From Clostridia bacterium (GTDB taxonomy: Bacteria > Bacillota > Clostridia > Christensenellales > Borkfalkiaceae), in contig JAGAJI010000017.1 in assembly GCA_017626135.1 (NCBI GenBank), forward strand, positions 1 to 34,666: a DNA stretch of 34,666 nucleotides, written 5' to 3'. Positions 2 to 33,284 of this stretch are shown piece by piece (position 1 is the stretch's first letter; every line of letters begins with the position of its first letter). The notes beneath the pieces were generated by a model. It made no database searches, was not told where the DNA came from, and saw nothing but the letters and a program-made list of their open reading frames with translations. The position numbers and the translations under genes are program-made.

Positions 2-265
2 AAGAAGTTATCGGGAAAACAGGTCGAACCCGAACCCGAGCCCACGAAAAACAGAATCACGCTGGATAAATTAGTCGCGCAAGAGCGCGCGCAAAAAGCG
101 GAAGAGCGGACGCGCTCCAAGGCAAAATTCAGCCTGTGGCTGCAAGATAAATTCCCCGTTTTTCATCGTAAAAAGGATATTCCCGTCGAGAAGAATACCG
201 TGCTTGAACAACTACCTGCCCCCCTCGAAGAGGAATCCGACACGGATTTCCTCGACAAAATTTAA
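2..265 (+). CDS. C-terminal end of an unidentified protein (partial)
   Basis: An open frame enters from the left edge and gives 87 residues before a TAA stop. The visible part is highly charged: a Lys/Glu/Arg-rich stretch with likely helical character, a short aromatic patch (FSLWLQDKFPVFH) and an acidic tail ending DFLDKI. No membrane segment or catalytic motif is visible, so I cannot name it. It is the only plus-strand gene in the left 29 kb and converges on the phosphatase gene at 360-818, with a 16-bp hairpin between them. Codon use is like the neighbours. The stretch coding for QLPAPLEE contains one copy (213-222) of the dispersed 10-mer reported in the findings. The frame is well supported by its convergent position and the terminator-like hairpin after it, but the function is unknown. 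Confidence 0.6.
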   Translation, partial: KKLSGKQVEPEPEPTKNRITLDKLVAQERAQKAEERTRSKAKFSLWLQDKFPVFHRKKDIPVEKNTVLEQLPAPLEEESDTDFLDKI

Positions 266-314
266 GAAGAAAAGAATGCGGTCATATAGTCAAACGAGGT
301 CGCTTTTAATCGAA

Positions 315-351
315 CACCGCCCCCGAAAGTCTACGACTTTCGGGGGCGGTG
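315..351. terminator. Bidirectional terminator-like hairpin between convergent genes
   Basis: A perfect 16-bp inverted repeat (315-330 with 336-351) surrounds a 5-nt loop, ctacg. It lies between the stop of the plus-strand partial gene and the stop of the minus-strand phosphatase gene. No clear T-tract follows on either strand, so intrinsic termination would rest on the very stable GC-rich stem. It could instead be a transcript-end or insulating hairpin. Confidence 0.65.
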
Positions 352-359
352 CCTCGCAT

Positions 360-818
360 TTATATAAGTGTTTTCAACAATCCTTCGAGTCCTCTGACAA
401 GGTCTTGATAGGTCGCCGTAAAGTCCCCCGTATACCACGGGTCCGCAACCTCTCCGCCACCTGCGAAGTCCGGCAGTTTTTTGCATTTCTCCGCATTTTT
501 CGCGCCCACGATTTTCCTCGCGCGGCGCACGTTGCTCTCGTCCATGCAAAGGAGCAAATCGTAATACTCCCCGTCCGCTTCGGTCAGCAGTTGCGCCCGT
601 TTCCCCTCGCAGAAAATGCCATGCTTTTGGAGTTCCGTTTTGGCAGGAGGATAGACGGGATTGCCCACGCCGTTCCAAATTTCTTCGGTGGAGACGGCGG
701 AGGACGCAACGTCAAACTCTCCCGCCCTTCCAAGCTTTTTCACCATATCCTTAAAGATAAATTCCGCCATCGGTGAACGGCATATATTGCCGTGGCAAAC
801 GAACATAATCTTATACAT
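360..818 (-). CDS. Low-molecular-weight protein tyrosine phosphatase
   Basis: This 152-residue protein is the usual length for the family. It begins with the P-loop CHGNICRS: catalytic Cys8 and Arg14 form the CX5R phosphate-binding loop, followed by a serine. The general-acid Asp is likely in the C-terminal ADPWY motif. Such cytosolic enzymes dephosphorylate phosphotyrosine or phosphoarginine proteins; the substrate cannot be told here. The start ATG follows AGAGG and overlaps the end of the FeoB-associated gene by 8 nt, so it is the last gene of the feo operon and probably translationally coupled to it. A regulatory role in iron uptake is only suggested by position. A 16-bp hairpin follows the stop. 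Confidence 0.9.
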   Translation of the reverse strand: MYKIMFVCHGNICRSPMAEFIFKDMVKKLGRAGEFDVASSAVSTEEIWNGVGNPVYPPAKTELQKHGIFCEGKRAQLLTEADGEYYDLLLCMDESNVRRARKIVGAKNAEKCKKLPDFAGGGEVADPWYTGDFTATYQDLVRGLEGLLKTLI

Positions 819-999
819 GGGTATCCTCTTCGGGATTTTTATCGTCTTTTCCGACGCCGCAAACGCCTGCGTGCGGACAGCCCTGACAGCCGCAACCGCA
901 GCCCGTTTTTCCTTTCTTTTTTTGTACGATCAGGTAGACGACGATGCCTATCACGAGCACCGCGCTCCCTACGATCAAAGCAATATCAATCGGTTGCAT
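811..999 (-). CDS. FeoB-associated Cys-rich membrane protein
   Basis: This small protein of 62 residues has one N-terminal membrane helix (about residues 6-25). A short Lys-rich cytosolic stretch and a Cys cluster follow (GCGCGCQGCPHAGVC), then an acidic tail. That arrangement is the hallmark of the small FeoB-associated proteins found beside feoB in Firmicutes. A role as a metal-binding partner of FeoB is generally proposed but not proven. The start ATG lies just after the feoB stop and is preceded by GAGG, which itself lies in the feoB 3' end. The gene overlaps the next one, so co-transcription and coupled translation are likely. The gene is too short for similarity alone, but the position and the Cys motif make the call firm. 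Confidence 0.88.
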   Translation of the reverse strand: MQPIDIALIVGSAVLVIGIVVYLIVQKKKGKTGCGCGCQGCPHAGVCGVGKDDKNPEEDTHV

Positions 1000-1001
1000 T
1001 T

Positions 1002-3311
1002 TTACACCTCTTCACGGGATTTGCGTTTCTTCTCCGCGTCCTTTTTATCCATGTATTTGTTGTAGAGCACGATCCCCACGACGGTGAGCGCCGCAACGAC
1101 GATCCAGACGGCTACGGGCCATACGAATTGTCCGACCGTGTACACGATCGTCGATACCAAATACGAGGTGAACACCCAGAACAGCAACGTCCACTTGAAC
1201 TTGCCCTTGCCGATTTCCCCTCTTGCCGCCGCCACCGCCGCAAAGCAGGGAATGGTCAACATATTGAAGGCGATGAAGGAGATGAGCGCAGGCGCACCGA
1301 TACCCGTTTCCTGAATCATGATCATGACTTCCGAGACGCCGTCCTCACTCACGCCGGCAAAGGACGTTGCCAAGCACGCCGCGAAGGTACCGAACGCCGC
1401 GATGACGTCCTCTTTCGCAATCAAGCCGAGGAGCGCCGCTACCGCGAACACCCAGCCGTTGCTATTGAGTTGGCTACCAAAGCCCAAGGGGGTGAACAGG
1501 GGCTGAATGAACTGCCCGAGGGACGCCAAAATGGACAGGTCGGTATGGGCGAATTCCTCGTCGCCGACGGTGATATAGCCCACGTGTTGCCAGTTCCACT
1601 TGAAGTTGGACAGAAACCAAATGACGACGCAGGAAATGAGAATGATGGTAAACGCCTTCTGCAAGAAGTGTTTTGCCTTATCCCAAAGGTGGAGCATCAA
1701 ATTTTTGAACCCGGGCAGGTGGTAGGTGGGGAGCTCCATGATGAAGGGAGACGCCTCACCGCGCTGGGTGGTATTCCGCATCACGAGCAGGGATACGAGC
1801 GCCGTCACGATCCCGAGCAAGTACATCGAGTAGGTGATGACGTCCGCATTCCCTACGCCGAACGCCTGTACGATTGCGCCCGACACCGCCAACAGAATGG
1901 GCATCTTCGCGCCGCAGGAGAAGAAGGGAATGACGCGAACGGTCGCCTCACGCTCCCGCTCGTCCGCCATGGTACGGGTATTGATCATCGCAGGCACCGA
2001 ACACCCAAAGCCCATAATCATGGGCATGAACGCTCTGCCCGACACGCCGAAACGGCGGAAAATCCGATCGAGCATGAACGCCACGCGCGCCATGTAGCCC
2101 GAGTCCTCCAAAATGGAGAAGAACAGGAATAAAACGAGGATCTGCGGCAGGAAGGAGAGCACCGAGGCTACCCCACCCCAAACGCCGTCGCAAATAAATC
2201 CGACGATGACTTTGTTCGCCTGCAAGCCTTCCAACCCGAGGGCAAGCCACTCGCCGATCTGATCGGTGAGCAGCTCCATCGCATTGAACAAAACGATGCC
2301 GGGGGAGTGGATCCCTTTGCTGAAAAAGATGCCGCCGACAACCGATTCGCTGATATTGCCGCACCATTCTCCGAACGCCGGGATCAGACCGAGATACAGG
2401 AAGTTTTCCGAGAAAGTCATGTGGAAAATGGCAAACATGATGACGAGGAAAATGGGAATCCCGAACCACTTATGGGTGAGAATTTTGTCCGCTTTGTCCG
2501 ATTTGGACAGTTCCTCGTAGTCGAGTTTTCTCGCTCTCGTCAGCGTGGACGAGAAGTGCTTGGTGATGTATTTATACCGCGCGTCGGCGATCGCTGCCTC
2601 CGTGTCCCCGTGGAAGGCGTCGTTGACGAGGTTTTCGCGAATGAACGCCTGCGCCGCGCGTGCCTCGGCAGGGTGCGCCGCCACCTCGATTGCATCCTTC
2701 TCCACCAACTTGATCGCATGGAAGAGGGGGGCTTCCACCTCTTTGAGCCGCAGGGCGATCTCCGCGTTGGAAATCGCCGAACCGAGCGCCGATTCTTTGA
2801 GCACGCTCGTGCCCTTGCGGGGCGTTTTCACCGCCTCGACGGCGCGATCCATGAGCTTTTCCACATTGTCGCCTTTGAGCGCGGATACTTCCACCACCGC
2901 AAATCCGATGCGTTTTTCCAACGTCTTGACGTCGATGCGATCGCCCCGCTTATCGAGTACGTCCGTCATGTTGAGCGCCACCACCATGGGCACGTCGAGC
3001 TCCATGAGCTGCGTGGTTAAGTACAGGTTGCGCTCCAGGTTGGTCGCGTCAACGATATTGATGACGCAATCGGGATGTTCTTCGAGAATGAAGTTCCTCG
3101 CCACCACTTCCTCGGGGGTGTAGGGGGACAGGGAATAAATCCCCGGCAAATCGACGATGTCGACGGGGGTATCCCCTTTTTTATAAGTACCTTCACGCTT
3201 GTCGACGGTGACGCCGGGCCAGTTGCCCACGTGGGCGGTACTGCCCGTCAGCGCGTTAAACAGCGTCGTTTTCCCCGAGTTGGGGTTTCCTACTAATGCA
3301 AATTTTAACAT
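1002..3311 (-). CDS. feoB: Ferrous iron transporter FeoB
   Basis: This 769-residue protein is the GTP-dependent inner-membrane Fe(II) transporter. The N-terminal G domain shows G1 GNPNSGKTT (residues 8-16), the G2 region GVTVDK (33-38), G3 DLPG (54-57) and G4 NMTD (about 118). A helical GDI-like linker and a polytopic membrane domain follow, with two gate-type repeats (the first near SFLPQILVLF and MARVAFMLDR, the other near PFFSCGAKMPIL). Both gate regions carry the Cys residues (GFGCSVPA, FFSCGAKMP) typical of FeoB. The start ATG is preceded by AAGGAG. It lies 114 nt downstream of feoA in the same operon; one copy of the intergenic repeat fills part of that gap. It is expected to respond to iron through the palindromes upstream of feoA. 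Confidence 0.98.
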   Translation of the reverse strand: MLKFALVGNPNSGKTTLFNALTGSTAHVGNWPGVTVDKREGTYKKGDTPVDIVDLPGIYSLSPYTPEEVVARNFILEEHPDCVINIVDATNLERNLYLTTQLMELDVPMVVALNMTDVLDKRGDRIDVKTLEKRIGFAVVEVSALKGDNVEKLMDRAVEAVKTPRKGTSVLKESALGSAISNAEIALRLKEVEAPLFHAIKLVEKDAIEVAAHPAEARAAQAFIRENLVNDAFHGDTEAAIADARYKYITKHFSSTLTRARKLDYEELSKSDKADKILTHKWFGIPIFLVIMFAIFHMTFSENFLYLGLIPAFGEWCGNISESVVGGIFFSKGIHSPGIVLFNAMELLTDQIGEWLALGLEGLQANKVIVGFICDGVWGGVASVLSFLPQILVLFLFFSILEDSGYMARVAFMLDRIFRRFGVSGRAFMPMIMGFGCSVPAMINTRTMADEREREATVRVIPFFSCGAKMPILLAVSGAIVQAFGVGNADVITYSMYLLGIVTALVSLLVMRNTTQRGEASPFIMELPTYHLPGFKNLMLHLWDKAKHFLQKAFTIILISCVVIWFLSNFKWNWQHVGYITVGDEEFAHTDLSILASLGQFIQPLFTPLGFGSQLNSNGWVFAVAALLGLIAKEDVIAAFGTFAACLATSFAGVSEDGVSEVMIMIQETGIGAPALISFIAFNMLTIPCFAAVAAARGEIGKGKFKWTLLFWVFTSYLVSTIVYTVGQFVWPVAVWIVVAALTVVGIVLYNKYMDKKDAEKKRKSREEV

Positions 3312-3401
3312 ACTTTCTCCTTACTTTTATTACGTATATGCGATTTTTCAATCGTTTATGACGACGAGTTTTTCCCCTCTGCCAAGCGCCCGTTTTGGAA
3401 C

Positions 3402-3425
3402 TCAACGCAGACATGGGTGCCCCGT
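3402..3425 (-). repeat. Intergenic motif B, copy 1 (after feoA)
   Basis: On the coding strand the TAA of feoA is followed at once by ACGGGGCACCCATGTCTGCG and then TTGA. It is one of six related copies (5730, 7011, 9156, 9961, 27752) that lie in gaps between co-oriented genes and contain an ATG without a Shine-Dalgarno. Confidence 0.75.
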
Positions 3426-3647
3426 TTACTCGATTTCCACGTGCGCCGCCTCCGCTTTTCGAAGCGTAAGCTCATAGCCGCGCAGAGCAATTTCGATGGG
3501 ATCGCCCAAGGGCGCTTTTTTACGCAGATACACTTCCGCGCCCGGCGTGATCCCCATATCGAAGAGCCTCCGACGAATCGCGCCCTCGCCGTTGACTGCC
3601 GTCACCTTTCCTCTTTCTCCGATCGACAATTCTGACAAAAGTTTCAT
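3426..3647 (-). CDS. feoA: Ferrous iron transport accessory protein FeoA
   Basis: The product is a 73-residue SH3-like cytosolic protein that assists FeoB. The characteristic core RRRLFDMGITPGAEV is present at about residues 25-39, followed by the beta-rich PIEIALRGYELTLRKAEA end. I chose the ATG at 3647 because AGGAG sits 7 nt upstream; the longer frame from 3665 would place the RBS inside the gene. It is the first gene of the feo operon and has a strong sigma-A promoter 82 nt upstream of the start. The intergenic repeat begins directly after its TAA stop. Confidence 0.96.
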   Translation of the reverse strand: MKLLSELSIGERGKVTAVNGEGAIRRRLFDMGITPGAEVYLRKKAPLGDPIEIALRGYELTLRKAEAAHVEIE

Positions 3648-3671
3648 TTTGATTCTCCTTCTCAAATTTTC

Positions 3672-3685
3672 TTAACCGTGGTTAA
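3672..3685. promoter_or_regulatory. Palindromic operator in the feo 5' leader
   Basis: The perfect palindrome TTAACCGTGGTTAA lies between the feo transcription start and the feoA RBS. A second, imperfect copy lies at 3765-3778. The palindrome size and the A/T-rich flanks fit a dimeric metalloregulator such as the DtxR/MntR-like protein encoded at 5332-5706. The assignment of the regulator is inference. Confidence 0.7.
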
Positions 3686-3728
3686 TTTTCAATACAAATA
3701 AAAAGCGGAACATCAATTTCCGTATAAC

Positions 3729-3757
3729 ACTATACCACATTTATATGCGTTTGTCAA
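3729..3757 (-). promoter_or_regulatory. Sigma-A promoter of feoA-feoB
   Basis: Read on the minus strand: TTGACA (3757-3752), 17-nt spacer, TATAGT (3734-3729). It is a near-consensus promoter, with palindromes on both sides, consistent with strong expression held down by an iron-dependent repressor. Confidence 0.88.
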
Positions 3758-3764
3758 CTAAAAA

Positions 3765-3778
3765 TTAACCAAAGTTAA
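3765..3778. promoter_or_regulatory. Second feo operator copy upstream of the -35
   Basis: TTAACCAAAGTTAA lies 7 bp upstream of the feo -35 hexamer and is an imperfect copy of the palindrome at 3672-3685. Two like sites bracketing one promoter suggest cooperative repression. The binding protein is inferred, not shown. Confidence 0.62.
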
Positions 3779-3816
3779 GAATTTTTTTGAAAAATTTTTT
3801 GTGTTCATGATTTATG

Positions 3817-3843
3817 AAAAAAAGCAGCCGCGCTTGCGACTGC
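3817..3843 (-). terminator. Rho-independent terminator of the ruvB/regulator unit
   Basis: On the minus strand the stem GCAGTCGC/GCGGCTGC (one G-T pair, loop AAGC) is followed by seven T residues. It lies 13 nt after the stop of the flavodoxin-like gene and separates that unit from the feo promoter. Confidence 0.88.
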
Positions 3844-3855
3844 CTATGTCCCCTA

Positions 3856-4395: not shown

Positions 4396-4415
4396 ACGTA
4401 TACCTCTATGATTGA

Positions 4416-5282
4416 TTATGTAAAGATTGCCATACAGAGGGAACCCGTCGCCAAAAGTGCGAGCCCCAACCACGTTTTTGCGGACGGTTTCTCTTTCAAA
4501 AAGAGGACCGAGAATACCACCGTGAGCACGATGCTCAATTTGTCGATGGGTACGACGACGCTTACCTGCCCCTGCTGAATGGCGTAATAGTAGCACAGCC
4601 AGCTCCCGCCCGTGGCAAACCCCGACAGCACGAGGAAAAGCAGTTCTTTGCCCTTGATCTCCTTGACCGATTTGGTCTCCTTGCGAAAGAACACGATCCC
4701 CCACGCCATCACGAGCACGACGCCCGTGCGGATTGCCGTCGCGGCGTTGGAATTGACGTTCTCAATCCCGATTTTGGAGAGAATGGACGTCGCCGCCGCA
4801 AACAGGGCGGACAGGAGCGCAAAGACGAGCCAAGCCCGTTTCGCCTTGTCTTCCGAACGTTTGATTTCCGTCATCAAAAAGGTTCCCGCTGCAACCGCCG
4901 CCAAGCAGAGCAGCTTTACCCACCAGAGCGTCCTCTCTTCGGGGAACACCAAAATGGCGATGAGCACGGAGAACACGACGCTCGATTTGTCCACCGCCGC
5001 CACTTTGGAGACTTCTCCCAAGGACAGGGCTTTGAAATAGCAGATCCAGCTCCCGCCCGTGGCAAGCCCCGATAAAATGAGAAAGACGAGCGACTTGGGG
5101 TCAATCGTCGCAAGCGTCGCATACGCGCCCGTGATCAGCACGATCAGCCAGGCGAACACGAACACCACGCCCGTGCGAATCGCTGTCGCCACGTCTGAAT
5201 TGACGTCTTTCATTCCGCATTTCGAAAGTATTGCCGTGACACCTGCAAAAATTGCGGAAAACACAGCCGCAACAATCCACAT
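4416..5282 (-). CDS. EamA/DMT-family transporter
   Basis: This 288-residue membrane protein has about ten hydrophobic helices arranged as two homologous halves. Residues 1-50 and about 145-195 both read as a SA-F-A--T-ILSK-G---VNS-ATAIRTGVV pattern, the internal duplication of the drug/metabolite transporter superfamily. Each half also has the -ATGGSW-CY--A- helix (ATGGSWICYFKAL and ATGGSWLCYYYAI). The substrate is unknown; metabolites, nucleotide sugars and drugs are all known in the family. The start follows GGAGG with a 6-nt spacer. It lies between the metalloregulator (49-nt gap) and the flavodoxin-like gene. The stretch coding for QQGQVSV carries a copy (4563-4572) of the dispersed 10-mer. 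Confidence 0.92.
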   Translation of the reverse strand: MWIVAAVFSAIFAGVTAILSKCGMKDVNSDVATAIRTGVVFVFAWLIVLITGAYATLATIDPKSLVFLILSGLATGGSWICYFKALSLGEVSKVAAVDKSSVVFSVLIAILVFPEERTLWWVKLLCLAAVAAGTFLMTEIKRSEDKAKRAWLVFALLSALFAAATSILSKIGIENVNSNAATAIRTGVVLVMAWGIVFFRKETKSVKEIKGKELLFLVLSGFATGGSWLCYYYAIQQGQVSVVVPIDKLSIVLTVVFSVLFLKEKPSAKTWLGLALLATGSLCMAIFT

Positions 5283-5331
5283 AACCAGCCTCCAAACGCT
5301 TTATCCCTTGCAGTAAAAAACTTCTTTCGCT

Positions 5332-5706: not shown

Positions 5707-5729
5707 AATTTCCCCTCTTTTTATCATTC

Positions 5730-5752
5730 GTCAAATACATGGTATGCCCGTA
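5730..5752 (-). repeat. Intergenic motif B, copy 2 (before the metalloregulator)
   Basis: On the minus strand this copy reads ACGGGCATACCATGTATTTG, just upstream of the metalloregulator's RBS. It matches the copies at 9156 and 9961 through GGGCATACCATGT and then diverges. Confidence 0.65.
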
Positions 5753-5757
5753 TTGAA

Positions 5758-5786
5758 ATAATTGCCCTTTTGCTTTTTATTGTCGA
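5758..5786 (-). promoter_or_regulatory. Possible weak promoter for the metalloregulator unit
   Basis: On the minus strand TCGACA (5786-5781), a 17-nt spacer and AATTAT (5763-5758) match the sigma-A pattern at 5 of 6 and 4 of 6 positions. It would allow the regulator, transporter and flavodoxin-like genes to be transcribed apart from ruvB-queA. Confidence 0.35.
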
Positions 5787-5839
5787 GCCGCTTAATGCGC
5801 GCCTCCGATTTGCGGAAGTTGAAATACGAAGGGCTTACA

Positions 5840-7001: not shown

Positions 7002-7010
7002 AATCTTAAC

Positions 7011-7036
7011 TCAACAAATACATGGGTGCCTCGTTT
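7011..7036 (-). repeat. Intergenic motif B, copy 3 (ruvB-queA gap)
   Basis: The minus strand reads ACGAGGCACCCATGTATTTG then TTGAG, 4 nt after the ruvB TGA. It fills most of the 36-nt gap and its ATG opens a five-codon frame that ends at TAA just before the queA start. Confidence 0.7.
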
Positions 7037-7037
7037 C

Positions 7038-9155: not shown

Positions 9156-9180
9156 GTGAACGCAGACATGGTATGCCCGT
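9156..9180 (-). repeat. Intergenic motif B, copy 4 (after the membrane-protein gene)
   Basis: On the minus strand the TAA stop of the gene at 9181 is followed at once by ACGGGCATACCATGTCTGCG and then TTCAC. It is identical to the copy at 9961 through that 25-nt core. Confidence 0.78.
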
Positions 9181-9915
9181 TTACTCGTCGCCGAGGAAAT
9201 TCCCCTGTCCGTCCACAAATAGTTTCCCTGTTTTTTTATTGTACATTTTGACAATGCGGCCCTTTGTGACAAGTTGTTTGAACGCATTTTCGGGGTTATA
9301 CAAAAGGTACGTCCAGTTGCCGTCCATTTTCTTATCCAACCCCGTTTTCTTCATAAACGCAAATACCCTCTCGTCCAAAGGGATAAAAAAGGGAATGAGG
9401 TCGTCGTCCATCGCAAACACCGCGATGGCAAGATATACGCGGCGGTAAACGGACTGCGTAGCAAGCACGAGTTCGGCACGCTCCCACGGTATGTAAAAGA
9501 CGTTTTCTCGCGCTTCGTCAAATACCTGCCCTGCCTCTTCGTCGGGAATTTCCAGTTGTACTCCATCTTTTTCGAGGGTGTAAACGAGGTCTTCGTCCGT
9601 AACCGTCAAACTCTCTTCCTCGCAAGGTTTGGGCTCGTTGAAAAGGTAGGAAAAGCGCTCCATTTCAATCTTGACGTCCACTTTCGTTGCCAACGCAAGC
9701 AAAACGAACGCGGCAACGTTCACCAACACCATCCAAGGCATCCAAGCAATCGCCACGATGATTCCCGCGTCGTTTCTCGCCGCAAGCAGTCCTAAAATAA
9801 TCGGCGCAGGGAAAAGCAAAATCAGGACGTACAAGGGAATCCCTACCGTCAGAATTTTCCAACGGAAGGAAGACATACTCGCTTTTCTCTGTTGTCTTTT
9901 TTCTTTCAACGTCAT
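9181..9915 (-). CDS. Two-helix membrane protein of unknown function
   Basis: This protein of 244 residues was not recognised. After a basic N-terminus (KEKRQQRKAS) come two long hydrophobic segments (about residues 22-46 and 50-76). A cytosolic-looking region of about 165 residues follows, rich in acidic and aromatic residues. It has no Cys pattern or nucleotide-binding motif; its tail is Lys/Gly-rich (KKTGKLFVDGQGNFLG). The two N-terminal helices with a mixed alpha/beta soluble domain resemble YcxB-like proteins in outline only. The start ATG follows GGTG. It is embedded between the radical SAM gene (84-nt gap) and rsmA in a housekeeping operon, suggesting constitutive low expression. Codon use matches the neighbours. 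Confidence 0.85.
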   Translation of the reverse strand: MTLKEKRQQRKASMSSFRWKILTVGIPLYVLILLFPAPIILGLLAARNDAGIIVAIAWMPWMVLVNVAAFVLLALATKVDVKIEMERFSYLFNEPKPCEEESLTVTDEDLVYTLEKDGVQLEIPDEEAGQVFDEARENVFYIPWERAELVLATQSVYRRVYLAIAVFAMDDDLIPFFIPLDERVFAFMKKTGLDKKMDGNWTYLLYNPENAFKQLVTKGRIVKMYNKKTGKLFVDGQGNFLGDE

Positions 9916-9933: not shown

Positions 9934-9962
9934 ACGTCGTTGCCTTCTTCCGGCAACTACGT
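9934..9962. repeat. Inverted repeat between the radical SAM and membrane-protein genes
   Basis: Arms ACGT-C-GTTGCC and GGCAAC-T-ACGT pair with one mismatch around a 7-nt loop. It abuts motif B copy 5 and lies just upstream of the start region of the membrane-protein gene. Confidence 0.5.
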
Positions 9963-9986
9963 GAACGCAGACATGGTATGCCCGTT
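9961..9986 (-). repeat. Intergenic motif B, copy 5 (after the radical SAM gene)
   Basis: The minus strand reads ACGGGCATACCATGTCTGCG then TTCAC, starting 13 nt after the radical SAM stop. It is identical in core to the copy at 9156, 0.8 kb away. Confidence 0.78.
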
Positions 9987-9999
9987 TTGAATTTATGGA

Positions 10000-10962
10000 T
10001 TAAGAATCGGTAATATATTTGCGCACGTAGAGCGGAATACGCAGGCTATCCGCCAGGCGTTTGCAAGCCTCCACCTCCGCCTCGCCGATGCAATCGACGA
10101 TGGAGAAACGGCAGGGTACGCCATGACGCTTGCAAAGCTTCGCGAACTCGAGCATACCGTCAAATCCGCTCTCGCGGAATTGCGAGCGGCAGATGGGCTG
10201 ATATTTTTCATAGCAGGACGCATTCAGAGAAACGTTGACGAGGTCGATCTTTCCCTTCAGGTCGGGAACGATGTCGCGCTTGTGAATGAGGTTCCCCTGC
10301 CCGTTGGTGTTCAGTCTCGTCTTTAAGCCCTGTTCGTGGAAGAAGTCGCACAGCGCCACCATCTCCGCAAGGCGATAGGTCGGTTCACCGAAACCGCAGA
10401 ACACCACTTCCTGAAAACGGCTCAGATCCCCCATGCCGTGCGCCGCGGCGATGACTTTTTCCGCCGTGGGCTCGCCGTGACGGAGCCACAGATAGTTGCC
10501 GTAGTAGCTTGTACGCTCGTTGCGTACGCAGAAATCGCAGGCGTTGGAGCATTTGTTCGTCAGATTGACGTACAGATTCCCGTCCAGCGTATATAAATAG
10601 GTATCCTTGCGGTTATCGTCCTTGTTGTTTCCCTTACCCTGTTGTTGCTTGGGTTGCTGTTTTTGCCCCTGTTGTTGGGGAGCCTTCTTTTTGTTGGCGT
10701 TATTTTGTTGGGGCTGGGGCTGAGGCTGCTTGCCGCCATTTTGCTGCGCCTTGGCGTTTTGTTGCCCCTTCGATTGATTTTGCGGCTTTTCCTTTTTGGG
10801 TTGACCCTGCTGGGACAGTTGCGGCTGTTGTGCCTGTTGATTGCGTACCTGCCCCTCCTGCGCGTTGTTTTCACCGTTGGGTTTATGATGTTTTTTGCGG
10901 CGTTTTCTGCCGCCGTTTTCCCCTTGCGGGAGTATTTGTTCGTTTACTTTATTTTCTTCCAT
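10000..10962 (-). CDS. TatD-linked radical SAM protein with a long Q/N/K-rich N-terminus
   Basis: This protein has 320 residues. The C-terminal 200 form a radical SAM domain whose [4Fe-4S] ligands are the CX3CX2C motif Cys138, Cys142 and Cys145 (NKCSNACDFCVRN). The SAM-binding GFGEPT motif and the NTNG strand are also present. This matches the family of radical SAM proteins encoded next to tatD; their reaction is not established. Residues 1-117 are a low-complexity tract dominated by Gln, Asn, Lys and Gly, with no order-promoting pattern. Such a tail is not part of the usual family domain and looks intrinsically disordered. The start is 4 nt after the tatD stop, so coupling is likely. The tail codes for one copy (10846-10855) of the dispersed 10-mer. 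Confidence 0.88.
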   Translation of the reverse strand: MEENKVNEQILPQGENGGRKRRKKHHKPNGENNAQEGQVRNQQAQQPQLSQQGQPKKEKPQNQSKGQQNAKAQQNGGKQPQPQPQQNNANKKKAPQQQGQKQQPKQQQGKGNNKDDNRKDTYLYTLDGNLYVNLTNKCSNACDFCVRNERTSYYGNYLWLRHGEPTAEKVIAAAHGMGDLSRFQEVVFCGFGEPTYRLAEMVALCDFFHEQGLKTRLNTNGQGNLIHKRDIVPDLKGKIDLVNVSLNASCYEKYQPICRSQFRESGFDGMLEFAKLCKRHGVPCRFSIVDCIGEAEVEACKRLADSLRIPLYVRKYITDS

Positions 10963-10966
10963 AACT

Positions 10967-11752
10967 TCATTTCAGCTTAAAAAACAAGTCCTTTGCGTTG
11001 GCAAGAATTTGCGTTTTCAGCTCCTCCAAATTTTCATTTCGAAGCTCCGCCATGTAATCGACGACGTGCTTTACGTTTTTAGGTTCGTTGGGAAAGGTAC
11101 CCCGAAAGGGCACAGGCGTGAGGTAGGGACAGTCCGTTTCCGATAAAAGCAGGGGGGCAGGTATTCGTTGAACACATTCTTGCACCTTTTTTGCATTCTT
11201 GAACGTACACGGTCCGCCGAAAGAAAAGCGCAAGCCGAGCCCGATAAAATCGGTCAGCATTTCGGGGGAATAGGAATAACAATGCATGAGCCCGCCCTGG
11301 CTTAAAAGCCCCTTTCGCTCCTTCAAAAATTCGAGCGTTTCCTGCGCCGCGTCGCGGCTGTGAATGACGACGGGGAGCCCGAGCTCGTCCGCGAGCTCCA
11401 ACTGACGATGGAAAAGCTCCCGTTGCAATTCGGGCGAAGGGTTGTCGTCGAAGTGATAATCCAGACCGATCTCCCCGACCGCCACGCACTTTTCGTGGTT
11501 GCACAGCGCGCGGATTTCGTCCAGATCCCCTTCGTTATATTTCTTCAATTCGCTCGGGTGAAAGCCCGCGCAAAAATAGACGTTATCGTAATTTTCGGCG
11601 AGCTCTTTCGCACGCTTGGAAGAGGGGAGGTCGAAACCCGAGCACACGACGAGCCCGACTCCGTTTTCCTCCGCCCTTTTCAGCGTTTCTTGCACGCCGC
11701 CGACTTCCTCAAATTCGTCCCCCGTCAGGTGACAATGTACGTCGATATACAT
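10967..11752 (-). CDS. tatD: TatD-family metal-dependent DNase
   Basis: This protein of 261 residues has an amidohydrolase-type TIM barrel. The first metal ligands are in YIDVHCHL (His6, His8), and further family motifs are VAVGEIGLDYH, PVVIHSRDA, GGLMHCYS and LSETDCPYLTPVPFRG. TatD proteins are 3'-5' DNases linked to DNA repair. I chose the ATG at 11752, preceded by AGGGAG, because it starts the conserved IDVHCH strand; a longer frame would run into the hairpin array upstream. The gene follows metG, as in Bacillus, and a radical SAM gene follows it. Codons for QRIPAPLL contain a plus-oriented copy (11154-11163) of the dispersed 10-mer. Confidence 0.95.
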   Translation of the reverse strand: MYIDVHCHLTGDEFEEVGGVQETLKRAEENGVGLVVCSGFDLPSSKRAKELAENYDNVYFCAGFHPSELKKYNEGDLDEIRALCNHEKCVAVGEIGLDYHFDDNPSPELQRELFHRQLELADELGLPVVIHSRDAAQETLEFLKERKGLLSQGGLMHCYSYSPEMLTDFIGLGLRFSFGGPCTFKNAKKVQECVQRIPAPLLLSETDCPYLTPVPFRGTFPNEPKNVKHVVDYMAELRNENLEELKTQILANAKDLFFKLK

Positions 11753-14862: not shown

Positions 14863-14967
14863 ACGCTTTTCCTCCTTTTTCTATGTAAGGGGCGCTGCCC
14901 GTATCTTCCTAAAAATGCAAAACGACGGGGGCAGGTATGCGTTGAGTATGCGCAAAGCGGGGAATTT

Positions 14968-15681: not shown

Positions 15682-16450
15682 ACTCTTCTCCAAAATTCAA
15701 CGATGCTTTGTATTCTCTTCCTATCATATTCCCGGACGGGGAAAAATATACCCCCTTTTTCACCGTCCCGATCTCGATTTCTCCACGGTATAGAGGAATT
15801 GTTTTCTCCCCTGCAAACGTCGTAATCGCCATTTCATCGCATACCTGCCCCCCACCTTTCAAAATTTCTTCCCCGTAGAGCTCGTAGAAAAGCTCGGGGG
15901 AAAGAAAGCACACGGGCAAGCCGTCCTTTTTCGCCAAGTTTCCGCTGTCCAAAAACGCCTGCGTCTCCACGCACTTCTCCCCGTGGAAGATTTTACAGGG
16001 ATAAATCCGCTTATGTACCGCCCTGCGCTCGTAAAATTTCCGCACGAGCCAAACGGAGACGAAGCCAAGTAACGCAAATCCGAGAAAGACGAGCGGGCTT
16101 GCCACCTTCCTTCCGCTCCCGTATACAGCGAGGAGCGTCCCCCCGAAGCCAAAGCTGAAAATATAGAAGAAAATGCAAGTCAACGCATACCTGCCCCACT
16201 CCTTTCGCGTTTTCAGTCTCTCCGCCGTCACGAGACAGAGCAGGGCGCCCACCGTAAGTTTGAGGATAATTTTGAGAAAATCGGGCAGGCGCAAGAGAGG
16301 AAAGAGCAGGGCGAACAGCGCCCCGATCGTTCCCGAAAGACACACTTTCCACCACTTGATTTTGATTTTGGACGCGTACAGAGCCAAACAAAGAAGGGTG
16401 CCGTCGAAGAGGAAATTTTCTAAAAACGCGTATTCGATATAGAGTTCCAT
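15668..16450 (-). CDS. spoIIGA: Sporulation sigma-E processing protease SpoIIGA
   Basis: This membrane-anchored aspartyl protease of 260 residues activates pro-sigma-E at the sporulation septum. About five hydrophobic segments lie in residues 1-137, followed by a cytosolic protease domain. The catalytic Asp is Asp168 in FLDSGN, the family version of the D-[ST]-G motif. The C-terminal strand reads [19 protein letters not shown]. The start ATG is preceded by GGGGAG at short spacing. It is first in the spoIIGA-sigE-sigG cluster and would be under Spo0A control by analogy with Bacillus. Two copies of the dispersed 10-mer lie within it (15842-15851 and 16188-16197), in different reading frames. 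Confidence 0.95.
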
Positions 16451-18366: not shown

Positions 18367-19032
18367 TTATTTCAATAGATCGGGACGGTTTTTCTTGGTG
18401 ATGGCAATCGCCTGCTCCCTGCGCCAAGCGTCGATTTTCGCATGGTCGCCGCTGCGCAGAATTTCGGGCACGGCAAGTCCCCTATACTCTTGCGGACGGG
18501 TGTACTGGGGGTATTCGAGCAAGTTCTCCGAGAAACTCTCGTCCACCAACGACGAATTGCTGATCACCCCGTCCACGTACCGCGAAACGCAATCGGCAAC
18601 GACCATGGCAGGGAGTTCACCCCCCGTCAGCACGTAGTCGCCGATGGAAATTTCCTCGTCGATAAACAAATCCAAAGCCCGTTGATCCACCCCTTCGTAA
18701 TGTCCGCAGAGCAAGATGAGGTGCTCGTAGGCAAGGAGCTCGAACACCTTTTGTTGTTTGAATACCTGCCCCTTGGGGGACATATAGATACGGCGCGCCT
18801 GATGCGCGGGGTCGAGTGCCTCGATTGCGCTCCCGATGGGTTGCACCATCATGACCATGCCCGCGCCGCCACCGAAGGGATAATCGTCGCATTTTAAGTG
18901 TTTATCCTCGGTGTAGTCGCGGATATTGACGATATTGATCTCGATCTTTCCCGCCTTTTGCGCTCTGCCGACGATGCTCTCCCGCATGGCGGAAAACATC
19001 TCGGGAAAGAGGGTTAGAATATCGATTTTCAT
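18367..19032 (-). CDS. trmD: tRNA (guanine-N1)-methyltransferase TrmD
   Basis: This SPOUT methyltransferase of 221 residues makes m1G37 in tRNAs. It starts with MKIDILTLFPEMF, and continues with YPFGGGAGMVMM, the SAM knot CGHYEGVDQR, and SIGDYVLTGGELP. The C-terminal tRNA-binding domain ends GDHAKIDAWRREQAI and is short compared with many homologues but contains the key residues. It lies 25 nt downstream of ftsY and 15 nt upstream of rbgA. The usual partners rpsP, rimM and rplS are missing, so trmD has been separated from its ribosomal operon. One copy of the dispersed 10-mer (18763-18772) is inside it. Confidence 0.97.
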   Translation of the reverse strand: MKIDILTLFPEMFSAMRESIVGRAQKAGKIEINIVNIRDYTEDKHLKCDDYPFGGGAGMVMMVQPIGSAIEALDPAHQARRIYMSPKGQVFKQQKVFELLAYEHLILLCGHYEGVDQRALDLFIDEEISIGDYVLTGGELPAMVVADCVSRYVDGVISNSSLVDESFSENLLEYPQYTRPQEYRGLAVPEILRSGDHAKIDAWRREQAIAITKKNRPDLLK

Positions 19033-26779: not shown

Positions 26780-26852
26780 AGTAACCGCCTTTTGCCGCAA
26801 ACGAGGAGACTTTCCGCCCCTCGCGCGACCTAATATATACTTATACTCGATT

Positions 26853-26881
26853 ATTATAGCAGATTTTTCAAAAAAAGACAA
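26853..26881 (-). promoter_or_regulatory. Sigma-A promoter of the asnS operon
   Basis: On the minus strand: TTGTCT (26881-26876), 17-nt spacer with TG before the -10, TATAAT (26858-26853). It is almost identical in layout to the recF promoter. The leader is about 70 nt and no T-box is visible. Confidence 0.82.
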
Positions 26882-26895
26882 GCGTTCAAAGGCGA

Positions 26896-27696: not shown

Positions 27697-27751
27697 AACT
27701 CCACCCCGCACTATGTACCGCCCCGACGGACGAGGCTCCCCATGTTTTGCG

Positions 27752-27775
27752 CTCAACGCATACATGGTATGCCCT
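27752..27775 (-). repeat. Intergenic motif B, copy 6 (HAD-vanW gap)
   Basis: The minus strand reads AGGGCATACCATGTATGCGT then TGAG. This copy contains a perfect 6-bp inverted repeat GCATAC-atg-GTATGC (27758-27772). Its ATG is in frame with vanW but has no Shine-Dalgarno. Confidence 0.72.
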
Positions 27776-27800
27776 AATAGCGTGTGTGAAAGGATAAAAC

Positions 27801-28658: not shown

Positions 28659-28738
28659 AAATATTCCCCTTTGTTATCGTTCTCCCGTTTGGTATCTCGA
28701 AACGAAGTCGGCGTTCAACGCATACCTGCCCCCCTCGT

Positions 28739-29824
28739 TTACCCTTTTATCCGCCCGTTTTCAATGCGAATCTTGTTGCACTCCGTCCCGTATAAAACCC
28801 GTTCGGTGTGCGTGCAGGTCAGCACCGTTTGCAGCTCGGAAATACATTTGAGCAGTTTCTTCCTTCTCGGCAGGTCGAGCTCGCTCATCACGTCGTCCAA
28901 AACGAGAATGGGCGATTCCCCCGACAGGGCTTTGAAAATCTGCACTTCGGAGAGTTTCAACGCAAGCGCCGCCGTACGGGTTTGCCCCTGTGAGGCGTAC
29001 GCCTTAGCGTCGACGCCGCCGATCGTCACTTCCAAATCGTCCCTATGCGGCCCCACCGTGGTAAAGCCCAGACGCAAGTCCTTTTCGTAGTTGTTTTCCA
29101 ACCTCGTCAACAGCTTTTTGGATATCTCGCTCTCCTCTCCCTCATAGACGCGGTCGGGCTTGATGACGAGTTCCTCCCCCCCGTCCGTCAGAAAGGCGTG
29201 ATACTCCTTGGCGTAGGGCGCGAGCTTTTCCACGAACTCCGCCCGTTTCTTGACGATGATCGCCGCGTATTTGCACAGCTGTTCGTCCCACACGGGCAGG
29301 GTATCGAGCACCAGATCCACGTCCCGATTTTTCAGGAGCGTATTGCGCTGATCGAGGATCTTATTGTACCGCAACAGGGCGGTATAGTAGGCGGGCGAGG
29401 TTTGGGAAATGGAAATGTTCATAAACCGCCGCCGCTCGTCGGGCCCGTCCTGAATGAGCCGCAGCTCACCCGGGGAGAAGAATACGCTGTTGATATGTCC
29501 CATCAGGTCGGCGTTTTTATGAATTTTACTGCCGTTGACGCGGATTTCCCGTTTATTTTCGTAAATATCCGCCTCGATCGTCACTCTCCCGTAGCGATTT
29601 TCCGCTTCGGCGACGATATTCGCGCACTCCGCGCCCATGCGAATGAGCTGTTTGTCGTGCCGAATCCGCAGGGACGTACCCGTACAGAGGTAAAAGACAG
29701 CCTCGGCGCAGTTGGTTTTCCCCTGCCCGTTTTTACCGAACAGGATGTTCAATCCGTCCGAAAATTCGAAATTTTCCCGTTCGTAATTTCTGAAATTTTG
29801 AAGAAATAATTTTTTTATTTTCAT
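28739..29824 (-). CDS. recF: DNA replication and repair protein RecF
   Basis: This protein of 361 residues is an SMC-like ATPase that loads RecA at gaps. The Walker A GKNGQGKT is at residues 30-37. The signature region is YASQGQTRTAALALKLSEVQIF, the Walker B PILVLDDVMSELD. I start at the ATG at 29824 because the conserved MKIKKLFLQNFRNY begins there; the nearby GAGG is only 3 nt away, which is short. Unlike the standard dnaA-dnaN-recF-gyrB order, recF here diverges from dnaA; dnaN and gyrB are absent. The TAA stop is followed directly by a copy of motif A. Confidence 0.96.
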   Translation of the reverse strand: MKIKKLFLQNFRNYERENFEFSDGLNILFGKNGQGKTNCAEAVFYLCTGTSLRIRHDKQLIRMGAECANIVAEAENRYGRVTIEADIYENKREIRVNGSKIHKNADLMGHINSVFFSPGELRLIQDGPDERRRFMNISISQTSPAYYTALLRYNKILDQRNTLLKNRDVDLVLDTLPVWDEQLCKYAAIIVKKRAEFVEKLAPYAKEYHAFLTDGGEELVIKPDRVYEGEESEISKKLLTRLENNYEKDLRLGFTTVGPHRDDLEVTIGGVDAKAYASQGQTRTAALALKLSEVQIFKALSGESPILVLDDVMSELDLPRRKKLLKCISELQTVLTCTHTERVLYGTECNKIRIENGRIKG

Positions 29825-29875
29825 AAACCTCAAAAAAACCTGCTGAAATCGCTTTCTTTTCCTCGAAATTTGTAT

Positions 29876-29908
29876 TATAATTATAGCAAATAATTTTCAA
29901 AAAGACAA
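29876..29908. promoter_or_regulatory. Divergent recF/dnaA promoter region with a symmetric -10
   Basis: Minus strand, for recF: TTGTCT (29908-29903), 17-nt spacer, TATAAT (29885-29880). Plus strand, for dnaA: TATAAT (29876-29881), with a poor -35 (TTTCTT, 29853-29858). The two -10 elements overlap as the palindrome TATAATTATA (29876-29885), a layout known for bidirectional promoters. recF transcription is well supported; dnaA from the same element is inference. Confidence 0.65.
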
Positions 29909-29943
29909 GTACTTTTATTGAATTTACTGAAAAGGGAACAAAA

Positions 29944-31278
29944 ATGGCAGAACTTTCTCAACTTCAATTCATCTGGAAGCAGGTCAGCGAGCGTATCCAA
30001 AACCTCGTTTCCCCCATTTCCTACAACACCTATATCAAAACGTTGGAGCCCGTCGACATTATGGGCAGGGTTCTCGTGCTCAAAGCGGAGACCCCCTTGG
30101 GCGCCAACACCATCATGAAAAAGCACGCGGAGAAAATCCGCGACGCGATGGCCAAATGTGATTTGGGCGTAAAGGATTTCCGACTCGTCGTGGACGGCAG
30201 CGAAGAATTTTCCTTGGATCAGGAGGACGACTCCCTCGACGCCTTCCAGTCCGCGCCCATCAACAAGCAGTTCACGTTCGACTCCTTCGTCGCAGGCGCA
30301 GGGAGCAAATTCGTGTACGCGGCGGCGCAGGCGGTTGCAGAAGCCCCGGGCGAAACCTTCAACCCCCTCTTCATCTACGGGGAGTCGGGCTTGGGCAAAA
30401 CCCACCTCATGCACGCCATCGCCAACCAAATCGCACGCACGCACCCCGAAAAGAAAGTGCTCTATACCACTTGCGAGAACTTCCTCAACGAGTTTATCGA
30501 CTCCATCGCGCAAAAGAGCAGCGCGCGGTTCCGTTCCCACTACCGCAACGTGGACGTGCTCATGATCGACGACGTGCAATTCCTCAAAAACAAGACGCAG
30601 GTACAGGAAGAATTCTTCCACACCTTCAACGAGCTGTCGGCGCAGAACAAGCAAATCGTTTTAACGTCCGACCGTCCGCCCAAGGAAATCGCGACGCTCG
30701 AGGAGCGTTTGAGAACGCGTTTCGAAGGGGGCTTGATCGCGGACGTGCAACCCCCCGATCCCGAAACCAAAATCGCCATTCTCAAAAAGAAGGCGAGCGA
30801 TAAGAAATATATCATCGCGGACGACGTGCTTGAATTTTTGGCGCAGGACTCCGGGCACGACGTCAGAACGCTGGAAGGACGGCTCACCAAGGTCATTTTC
30901 GCCAGCAAGCTCCACGAAGAGCCCATCACTTTGGAGCTTGCCAAGAAGGCGCTCAACGAGTCCGTCAACGAGAGCGAGGAACAAGAGGACGTCACGGCGG
31001 AAAGCATTATTTCGGCGGTTTGCAACTACTTCAAGCAGAGCAAAGCCGACCTCATCGGCAAGGGCAAGAAAGCCGACCTCGTCAAGGCACGCCAAATCTG
31101 CGCCTACCTGCTTTGCGAAATGCTCTCCCTCCCCCTCGTCGCCGTCGGGAACGTCTTAGGCGGTCGCGACCACACGACGATTATGTACGCAAGGGACAAG
31201 ATGGAAAAACTCGCCTCCCTCAACGACAAGATCGCCAAGGAGATCGACGATATCAAGAATATCGTTTTGAAACAATAA
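29944..31278 (+). CDS. dnaA: Chromosomal replication initiator DnaA
   Basis: This protein of 444 residues has all four domains. Domain I is short (LSQLQFIWKQVSERI), domain II a variable acidic linker, and domain III an AAA+ core with Walker A GESGLGKT (146-153) and Walker B DVLMIDDVQFL. Domain IV ends with the DNA-binding GGRDHTTIMYARDKM. It opens the origin by binding DnaA boxes. The start follows AAGGGA. Here it diverges from recF, and mnmG, not dnaN, follows 42 nt downstream. I see no cluster of DnaA boxes in the flanking gaps, so the origin is not evident at this gene. Confidence 0.98.
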   Translation: MAELSQLQFIWKQVSERIQNLVSPISYNTYIKTLEPVDIMGRVLVLKAETPLGANTIMKKHAEKIRDAMAKCDLGVKDFRLVVDGSEEFSLDQEDDSLDAFQSAPINKQFTFDSFVAGAGSKFVYAAAQAVAEAPGETFNPLFIYGESGLGKTHLMHAIANQIARTHPEKKVLYTTCENFLNEFIDSIAQKSSARFRSHYRNVDVLMIDDVQFLKNKTQVQEEFFHTFNELSAQNKQIVLTSDRPPKEIATLEERLRTRFEGGLIADVQPPDPETKIAILKKKASDKKYIIADDVLEFLAQDSGHDVRTLEGRLTKVIFASKLHEEPITLELAKKALNESVNESEEQEDVTAESIISAVCNYFKQSKADLIGKGKKADLVKARQICAYLLCEMLSLPLVAVGNVLGGRDHTTIMYARDKMEKLASLNDKIAKEIDDIKNIVLKQ

Positions 31279-31286
31279 CCGTGGAT

Positions 31287-31302
31287 TGCGCCGCTCGGCG
31301 CA
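31287..31302 (+). repeat. Micro-hairpin in the dnaA-mnmG gap
   Basis: TGCGCCG-ct-CGGCGCA is a perfect 7-bp palindrome with a 2-nt centre, 9 nt after the dnaA stop. attcatttt follows, so it might act as a weak attenuator before mnmG. It resembles the tatD-side hairpins in size. Confidence 0.5.
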
Positions 31303-31320
31303 TTCATTTTGTAAGAAATT

Positions 31321-33201
31321 ATGACTATGACGAACAAACGCGAATTTATTGAATACGAGGCAGACGCAGTCGTCGTCGGAGCGGGCCACGCAGGTTGCGA
31401 GGCGGCGCTCGCTTTGGCGCGCACGGGCATCAAGACCGCCCTGCTCACCTTAAACCTCGACAGCATCGCCTTTCTCCCCTGCAACCCCTCCATCGGGGGC
31501 ACCGCGAAGGGGCATCTGGTACGTGAAATCGACGCGCTCGGCGGTGAAATGGGGATCGTGGCGGACGACACCGCCCTGCAAATCCGTATGCTCAACGTCG
31601 GCAAGGGCGCGGCGGTACAGTCCCTGCGCGCGCAGTCGGACAAGAACGCCTACCATCGGGTGATGAAACAAACGCTCGAACGCACCGAAAATCTTCGCAT
31701 CATTCAGGCGGAGGCGACGGAAATCCTCACCGAAAACGGCAAATGCGCGGGGGTGAAGACGCAGTACGGCGGCGTCATTCCCTGCAAGGCGGTCGTGCTC
31801 TGCACGGGGGTATACCTCAACGGCGAAACGATCACGGGGCACGTCGTGCAAAAGTCGGGTCCCAACGGATTTGCGCCCGCCAACCATTTGACGGACAGTC
31901 TTATAAAACTCGGGTTCAACGTCCGTCGGTTCAAGACGGGTACGCCTGCCCGTGTGGATAGGCGCACGGTGGATTTCTCCAAATGCGAAGTGCAAAACGG
32001 GGATACGGATATCTATCCCTTCTCCTTCCTGCACGATACGCCTCCCGAGAACAAGATGCCCTGCTATCTCACCTACACCAACCCCACCACCCACAAAATC
32101 ATCACGGACAACCTCGACCGTTCCCCCCTCTACGACGGAACCATTCTCTCGACGGGGCCGAGGTATTGTCCCTCGATCGAGACCAAAGTCGTCCGTTTCA
32201 AAGACAAGGAACGCCACCAAATTTTCATCGAGCCCGAAGGCGCGGACACCTACGAAATGTACGTACAGGGTATGTCCACGTCCATGCCCCACGACGTGCA
32301 AAAACAAATGTACGCCTCCGTCGCAGGCTTGGAACACGCCGATATCATGCGCTACGGGTACGCCATCGAATACGATTGTATCGACACCCTCGACGTGTTG
32401 CCCACTTTGGAATTTAAGAAGGTGGAAGGGGTGTACACGGCAGGGCAAATCAACGGCACGAGCGGCTACGAGGAAGCGGCGGCACAGGGATTGATGGCGG
32501 GCTTGAACGCCTCCCTCAAACTCCGCGGACTCCCCCCCTTCGTCCTGCGTCGCGACGAGGCGTATATCGGCGTGCTCATCGACGACTTGGTGACCAAGGG
32601 CACGGACGAACCCTACCGCATGATGACTTCGCGCGCCGAACACCGCATTTGCCTCAGACAGGACAACGCCGATTTCCGTCTCACCGAAAAGGGCAGGGAA
32701 GTCGGGCTCGTCAGCGAAGAGCGGTATCAACGATACTTGGCGCGCAAGGAAAAATACGAGACGCTGTTGGCGGCTCTGCAAACGCGAGTCCCCCAAAAGG
32801 AAGCGACGCCGTTCTTGGCAAAATACGGATACAGCGAGCCCACGGGCGGCGTTTCCTACGCCGATATGATCAAGCGCTCGATCCCCTTAAAAGATATTAT
32901 GCGCGAGTACCACGTCTTTGATGAGTACGCAAAAGACGTGTTAGAGACGGCGGAAATCACCGTCAAATACGAAGGGTACTTAAAGCAGGGCGCGGAGCTC
33001 ATTGAAAAGGCGAAACGCCTTGAAGACAAGCTTTTGCCCGAGGACGTGGATTACACGGAAATCAAGGGCTTGCGCCTCGAAGCGCAGGAAAAGCTCAACC
33101 GCATTCGTCCCTTGAACTTGGGACAAGCGGGCAGAATCTCGGGGGTCAACCCCGCCGATATCTCCGTGCTCATGGTGTGGTTGGCAACGCGCAACGGCTA
33201 A
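31321..33201 (+). CDS. mnmG: tRNA uridine 5-carboxymethylaminomethyl modification enzyme MnmG (GidA)
   Basis: This protein of 626 residues is the FAD enzyme that works with MnmE to modify the wobble uridine of tRNAs. The N-terminal FAD fold is [18 protein letters not shown] (about residues 18-35), followed by [22 protein letters not shown]. The family motifs [13 protein letters not shown] and [16 protein letters not shown] are present, with the C-terminal helical domain for MnmE and tRNA ([29 protein letters not shown]-like end [21 protein letters not shown]). The Shine-Dalgarno is weak (TAAGAAATT). The gene is next to dnaA, not near rsmG or mnmE as in many genomes. It ends in a strong bidirectional terminator. 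Confidence 0.97.
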
Positions 33202-33247
33202 CCCTTTTTCGTGGCAATAAAATCAAATAAAATTGCATTCAACGCAT

Positions 33248-33284
33248 ACCTGCCCCGTTGGTTTTCACCAACGGGGCAGGTTTT
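33248..33284. terminator. Bidirectional terminator of mnmG and the GT2 gene, built from motif A
   Basis: Perfect 15-bp arms (33248-33262 and 33267-33281) with a 4-nt loop lie between the convergent genes; TTTTCGTT follows on the plus strand. The left arm includes motif A on the minus strand (33247-33256). The right arm repeats its GGGGCAGG on the plus strand. Confidence 0.9.

Follow-up and report, generated by a model that had tools for sequence, protein, structure and literature searches.

A dialect-forming DNA word of a Clostridia genus, with a signature like that of uptake signals

The closest described systems and the word in the window

Genome-wide, sequence-specific tagging of self DNA is documented, in the partial texts drawn on here, in two Gram-negative families, the Neisseriaceae and the Pasteurellaceae. 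The subject of this analysis is a dispersed word, called word A, in a stretch of 34,666 nucleotides (the window) from a Clostridia bacterium of the family Borkfalkiaceae (assembly GCA_017626135.1, contig JAGAJI010000017.1); it is a recognition word at the level of DNA, and its signature resembles that of uptake signals. The DNA uptake sequence (DUS) of Neisseria, as far as the cited excerpts describe it, is likewise a short non-palindromic word; it is strongly over-represented in its exact form, occurs in both orientations and at conserved core-gene positions, forms dyads and has related dialects in sister genera (PMC3630211, PMC2397512), and it is present in thousands of copies per genome (PMC3630211). 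Word A differs from it in belonging to monoderm Clostridia, in having some 20- to 150-fold fewer copies, in its greater length, and in that no pilus machine was found. The uptake signal sequence (USS) of the Pasteurellaceae resembles word A in combining a core with an extended motif and in its use in terminators, and its receptor is, in the same excerpts, a predicted minor pilin (PMC1852404, PMC12616744); from this system, too, word A is set apart by its monoderm host, its far fewer copies, its length and the pilus machine that was not found. HIP1 of the cyanobacteria is described in the cited excerpt as an over-represented genome word without a proven uptake role and with an unsettled function, which makes it similar to word A, whereas its form is different, HIP1 being an 8-bp palindrome tied to DNA methyltransferases and word A an asymmetric word of 18-27 bp (PMC4390886). 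HIP1 (PMC4390886) is a caution that a genome word of this sort may endure although its function is unsettled.

Our literature search found no report of such a word in Clostridia, and a search with four stretches of the words gave a paper on a human gene as its sole match. The FtsK- and SpoIIIE-type orienting words (KOPS and SRS) and Chi sites share with word A the character of genome-wide functional DNA words; they are 5-8 bp long and polar, whereas the polarity of the 16-mer core of word A does not exceed that of composition.

The initial annotation reported ten copies of the 10-mer GGGGCAGGTA in the window, and every coordinate and strand it gave proved exact, the mean number expected from dinucleotide shuffles being 0.05. 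The four copies that it found to extend further are exact copies of an 18-mer, GGGGCAGGTATGCGTTGA, which is word A in its full form. Over these 18 bases six of the ten copies have 0-1 mismatch and four have 3-5. The copies and the inverted partner of one of them, all placed by sequence match, are as follows.

14928 to 14945, plus strand: word A, exact 18-mer, between the sigE-like and sigG-like sigma-factor genes
16180 to 16197, minus strand: word A, exact 18-mer, within spoIIGA (PF03419), frame G-R-Y-A-L
15834 to 15851, minus strand: word A with 1 mismatch, second spoIIGA site, frame G-Q-V-C-D-E
28715 to 28732, minus strand: word A, exact 18-mer, its 16-mer core 8 bp past the recF-like stop
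33239 to 33256, minus strand: word A, exact 18-mer, forming the left arm of a hairpin 3' of mnmG
33273 to 33281, plus strand: inverted partner GGGGCAGGT, forming the right arm of the hairpin 3' of mnmG
11154 to 11171, plus strand: word A with 1 mismatch, within a tatD-type gene
213 to 222, minus strand: 10-mer only, 4 mismatches over 18 bases
4563 to 4572, minus strand: 10-mer only, 3 mismatches over 18 bases, in a gene
10846 to 10855, minus strand: 10-mer only, 4 mismatches over 18 bases, in a gene
18763 to 18772, minus strand: 10-mer only, 5 mismatches over 18 bases, in a trmD-like gene

Gene borders were drawn with a simple codon-usage caller, and the names recF, mnmG, trmD, sigE and sigG were given by inspection, with no search behind them. 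The copy in the trmD-like gene coincides with a conserved S-P-K-G stretch of the protein. When 32 of 33 copies of the 16-mer were aligned (one copy near the end of its stretch was left out), the consensus was about AAAnGAnGGGGGCAGGTATGCGTTGAA, in which n marks less conserved positions, and beyond about 27 bp this alignment gave no clear conservation. The reverse complement of the word is about TTCAACGCATACCTGCCCCCnTCnTTT, and the word is not palindromic. The 10-mer would accordingly be the core of a double-stranded recognition word of 18 to 27 bp.

Genome-wide excess, fixed positions and placement

The genome under study (G000) comprises 1,467,695 bases in 79 contigs and is 94% complete. A count over the whole genome, which the initial annotation had proposed as a check, gave a strong excess: 129 copies of the 10-mer as against 8 for the same word read backwards (the reversed control), and 37 copies of the 18-mer as against none. 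Two samples of this genome were analysed further. The first, 376 kb, consists of the window and 20 stretches picked for word matches, and in this hit-chosen sample the 10- and 12-mers that rank highest for over-representation belong to word A and to the related word B described below. It holds 30 exact 18-mers and 14, 17 and 20 copies with 1, 2 and 3 mismatches, whereas 20 shuffled words have means of 0, 0, 0 and 0.3 at 0-3 mismatches. The second, 236 kb, consists of 20 stretches taken by contig number, with the exception of contig C57, which was taken for a ParB-like match; it has 2 exact copies and 2, 2 and 7 with 1, 2 and 3 mismatches, and the reversed word has none.

A sign of constraint on the DNA itself comes from spoIIGA (Pfam PF03419). 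Thirty orthologues were compared, their loci having been retrieved through protein similarity and irrespective of the word, and at the first site, where the window reads GGC AGG TAT GCG TTG, the 16-mer stands at the same codons in 13 of them, the window's own copy counted. Over 18 bases the match is exact in 12 of the 30; another 10 differ at 1-3 bases and 8 at 4-10. Arginine is written AGG in 23 of 26 cases at this site, as against 20% of the arginine codons in these genes, and the mean fraction of the modal codon is 0.84 at the five first-site codons compared with 0.63 at 118 other conserved columns. In a scan for frozen codons along the orthologues, which ignores kinship, the best five-codon stretch is the first word site and the best separate stretch is the second. 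Constraint at the DNA level is thus shown by sequence comparison, with a codon test on one gene, spoIIGA.

The positions of the word point in the same direction. The exact 18-mer occurs 145 times in 130 stretches, 82 times between genes and 63 times within them, and 70 of 77 homologous in-gene pairs carry it at the identical residue; of the seven exceptions, five come from a single locus whose word stands at the second spoIIGA site, and in two the offset is three residues. Positions are common to homologues with 47-60% protein identity. The genes concerned include those for a UvrD-type helicase (addA-like), addB, tatD, an HhH-GPD/NUDIX protein (mutY-like), a radical SAM/DUF512 protein, ArsP_2 and ABC transporters. 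Because these loci were selected for the word, the identity of their codons is not independent evidence, whereas the shared position is. The tatD site of the window (11154) has the exact 18-mer at the same residues in three relatives, and a word-poor relative (G002) keeps the 16-mer there in its TatD gene. In-gene copies are read in five patterns in several proteins. The earlier proposal that constraint acts on the DNA and not on the protein alone is therefore borne out by the 70 of 77 positions and, in spoIIGA, by the frozen codons. In several relatives a putative counterpart of the 14928 copy lies at a similar distance from spoIIGA, and at one locus (L038) an exact word lies at a similar distance in the opposite orientation. 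Two adjacent ABC transporter paralogues with 30% identity (L162:3778 and 5517) each contain an exact 18-mer, aligned at one and the same residue, which suggests independent gain or very old retention of the word.

A word that is dispersed, often intergenic and sometimes arranged in inverted pairs could also be the debris or the live copies of a mobile element of the repetitive extragenic palindrome (REP) or miniature inverted-repeat (MITE) kind. The second spoIIGA site lends this some colour, since an insertion is possible there: the alignments of two distant homologues contain gaps, 6 residues long in G020 (25% identity) and 2 in G002 (44%). G020, the most distant spoIIGA homologue, is also gapped just after the first site. 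Nevertheless, no gap is present at the first site itself among the 30 orthologues, word-less ones included, nor at the TatD site against word-less orthologues, so that no empty sites were found at either; nothing is conserved past about 27 bp, and the positions are shared at 47-60% identity as described above. The Y1 transposase was not found in G000, and any match at all was seen in 11 of 32 genomes, a patchiness for which the REP-associated transposase (RAYT) was also rejected as a reader of the word. The mobile element was rejected on the absence of a gap at the first spoIIGA and TatD sites and of a longer consensus, the second spoIIGA site being ambiguous, and this explanation is disfavoured to the point of being hardly credible.

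With regard to placement, the first sample has the 16-mer 33 times, 19 times between genes and 14 times within them, in both orientations. Among the 16 intergenic copies that could be classified (3 at the ends of stretches could not), 6 are in convergent intervals, which make up 12% of positions, and 1 is in a divergent interval. Word A is read in sense in 6 and in antisense in 9 of the in-gene cases, and in co-directional gaps the ratio is 6:4. Of the four inverted pairs found, three lie in convergent intervals; by form, the hairpin 3' of mnmG accounts for one and head-to-head dyads for the other three. The suggestion that one copy forms an arm of the mnmG terminator agrees with the predicted RNA fold of -34.1 kcal/mol (z -9.0), and inverted word pairs are predicted more generally to form terminator-like hairpins.

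The initial annotation had compared the word with uptake sequences, Chi sites and FtsK/SpoIIIE-type orienting sequences, partly on the ground that eight of the ten copies lie on the G-rich strand. That count is right, and yet it is weak evidence, since the bias of the 16-mer is at the level of composition: in 612 kb of G000, where the replichore strand was judged from the GC skew of each stretch alone, the 16-mer is on the G-rich strand in a ratio of 26:9, for which composition models would lead one to expect 1.9 to 3.1:1. The 10-mer slightly exceeds its prediction (62:17, that is 3.6:1, compared with 2.1 to 3.2:1). Because the bias of the 16-mer is that of composition and a word of 18-27 bp is far longer than the orienting words, the FtsK/SpoIIIE and Chi orienting classes are not supported and were rejected, while the comparison with a genome-wide DNA word of uptake-like pattern holds in most respects. 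If the word were a recombination or repair signal similar to Chi, with AddAB or a different helicase-nuclease as its reader, this would agree with the fixed positions that it takes in addB and in the addA-like (UvrD-helicase) gene of several relatives. Known Chi sites, however, have a length of 5-8 bp, and word A shows both orientations in genes as well as a strand bias within composition; we consider this signal quite unlikely.

The second word, its dialects and range among genomes

Besides word A the window carries six clear copies and one weak copy of a related word B, TTCAACGCA[GT]ACATGGTATGCCCGTTTT (short form TTCAACGCA[GT]ACATGGTATGCCCGTTT). Its left half is that of reverse-complemented A, its right half is different, and mixed A/B forms occur; B may accordingly be seen as a sister word that would keep the TTCAACGCA half and swap the other half. 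The clear copies, again placed by sequence match, are listed here.

3402 to 3428, plus strand: word B (TCAACGCAGACATGGGTGCCCCGTTTA)
5728 to 5754, plus strand: word B with a degenerate left half
7011 to 7037, plus strand: word B with a degenerate left half
9157 to 9183, plus strand: word B at a gene end
9962 to 9988, plus strand: word B, intergenic
27753 to 27779, plus strand: word B, intergenic

In the window (3402-3428, 9157-9183, 9962-9988 and 27753-27779) and at other loci, B words often lie within about 25 bp past a stop codon. In co-directional gaps word B is read in sense 13 times and in antisense once, and its GGGCATACC side is on the G-rich strand in 18 of 26 copies, where composition predicts at most 1:1. 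These two biases, together with the hairpin 3' of mnmG, are what an element acting in RNA would lead one to expect, be it part of a 3' untranslated region, a terminator or a processing site. Word A, on the other hand, is found both ways in genes and in co-directional gaps, and its copies inside genes are spread over several proteins and frames; an RNA-level element is therefore decidedly unlikely.

The family was sampled with 201 genomes, 29 of the genus of G000 and 172 others, the latter including 28 of a sister genus (g9). The 16-mer is present in 24 of the 29 genomes of the genus, with up to 46 copies, as against 1 of the 172 others; the remaining 5 of the 29 have no copy. In a genome of g9 (G009) the right half, ACATGG[TG][AT]..CC..GTTTT, recurs after a different left half, which is about ATCGCGG. 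A half-word pattern built on G009 and G000 has 38 copies in G000 (control 1), 10 to 187 copies in 16 of the 28 g9 genomes and 0 to 6 in the other 12, and at most 4 in the 144 genomes of the remaining genera, while the reversed control gives 0 to 3 in any genome. The half-word of g9 resembles a related dialect, of the kind described for Neisseriaceae uptake signals in the excerpt of PMC3630211. Judged from these genome sequences, word A is shown to be a genus-level, dialect-forming DNA word with positions common across species. When one genome for each of 84,980 species was searched, the exact 18-mer was found in at least 109 stretches; among the 80 matches listed all are metagenome-assembled genomes named Clostridia bacterium or Clostridiales bacterium, and where the title of these names a host it is the gut of deer, sheep or goat. 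The 16-mer also occurs in three viral stretches, a raw count from a set in which records near G000 may have been omitted.

The reader of the word

The evolutionary signature of word A, namely its excess, genus range, placement, spike of exact copies and fixed positions, fits in most respects a DNA uptake sequence of the classical kind, for which the reader would be a type IV or competence pilus. More specifically, it shares with uptake sequences the excess of the exact word, both orientations without extra polarity, inverted pairs in convergent terminators and DNA-level constraint at fixed core-gene positions, and ComEC is present as well. The initial annotation proposed to look for com genes, and the outcome does not favour a pilus. 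In G000 nothing matches T2SSE over the cut-off (best 1.8e-4) and no prepilin peptidase N-domain was found, a domain seen in 1 of the 29 genomes of the genus and in 29 of 201 in the family; among the 29, G222 alone has a PilB-grade ATPase and G167 is borderline. HHH_3, the ComEA domain, gave matches in 31 of 32 genomes; the frames are about 400-800 aa long, save for a weak and partial match in one of 216 aa, and no protein of ComEA size was identified. Within g9 the number of words does not follow the presence of a PilB-grade ATPase: the 8 of 28 genomes that have one contain 1, 10, 1, 0, 49, 187, 11 and 2 words, two with weaker T2SSE matches contain 71 (G066, 1e-28) and 44 (G140, borderline), and genomes without T2SSE over the cut-off contain up to 97 and 110. 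ComEC is present in 187 of the 201 family genomes, for which reason it was rejected as a discriminator of word-bearing genomes, and that of G000 has no Pfam metallo-beta-lactamase match. Since the machinery was not found and word number does not follow pilus genes, pilus uptake is unlikely as the general reader, and a classical uptake sequence is largely refuted and very unlikely. The ComEC-like protein of G000 (L006:9233-10897, 554 aa) is kept in a genome in which no pilus ATPase was found.

No uptake machine would be required if the word were the binding site of a chromosome-organising or nucleoid protein, similar in role to Noc, MatP or SlmA, and if ordinary selection acted to retain a copy in a given neighbourhood. 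This is the main rival, and on balance it is unlikely. On the one hand, the word is spread over many contigs in both orientations (37 18-mers and 129 10-mers in G000), its positions are conserved, and one relative has the exact copy at a similar place in inverted form. On the other hand, it is patchy, with none in 5 of 29 genomes of one genus and 0-6 in 12 of 28 of the other, which is odd for a housekeeping site, and such patchiness within two genera speaks against a housekeeping role; moreover, the word lacks palindromic symmetry. Nor does ParB follow its distribution, ParB_N being strongly matched in 14 of 14 g9 genomes tested, word-rich or word-poor, while of 18 genomes of the genus of G000 5 have weak matches and 13 have none, and G000 has a parS-like site of its own; ParB/Noc was therefore rejected as the reader. 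G000 encodes a divergent ParB on the minus strand of contig 57 (L210:2190-3068), with an HTH_ParB match of 3.8e-30 and a ParB_N domain half matched and below the cut-off, and despite this degenerate N-domain the parS-like site, with one mismatch, is present at L228:16952.

The reading we favour, tentatively and with somewhat less than even confidence, is that word A serves to recognise self DNA and is maintained through biased transmission or selection, with a putative reader outside the Com system. Stretches that bear the word would be recognised as self DNA, recognised stretches would be over-transmitted or better repaired between related cells, and copies would thereby be kept; this would be the same population process as has been proposed for the uptake signals of Neisseria and Haemophilus, but with a reader other than the Com pilus. 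Several observations weigh against it. The spike of exact copies is weaker in the 236 kb of stretches not picked for A matches, and 37 exact 18-mers per 1.47 Mb are far sparser than known uptake signals, whose density is on the order of one per kb in the excerpt of PMC5397411, a density that the 129 10-mers in 1.47 Mb do not reach either. In addition, no known uptake machine was found (T2SSE, prepilin peptidase or ComEA-sized HHH_3), ComEC is present in nearly all family genomes with or without words, and word B has a strand and gene-sense bias beyond composition.

It is possible, though rather doubtful, that endospore-forming Clostridia thus possess a self-DNA or transfer-bias word with genus dialects, served by a machine other than a pilus, and that this is a further independent origin of uptake-signal-like tagging. 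Since no pilus machine was found in these gut Clostridia, their uptake-like signature would point to a DNA-transfer route, or to a chromosome-reading protein, that is yet to be described, and the patchiness within two genera offers a comparative handle for finding the gene of the reader.

Samples of 55-100 kb from seven genomes that are word-poor or belong to other genera (G002, G007, G013, G020, G080, G150 and G175) gave no clear dispersed word of the A kind, and what was prominent in them looked promoter-like, codon-driven, or like local or interspersed repeats. Word-poor relatives have other repeated words, for example ACTCGACCGAGT in G080 (L093-L097) and AGAAATGTGCGA in G175 (L083-L087).

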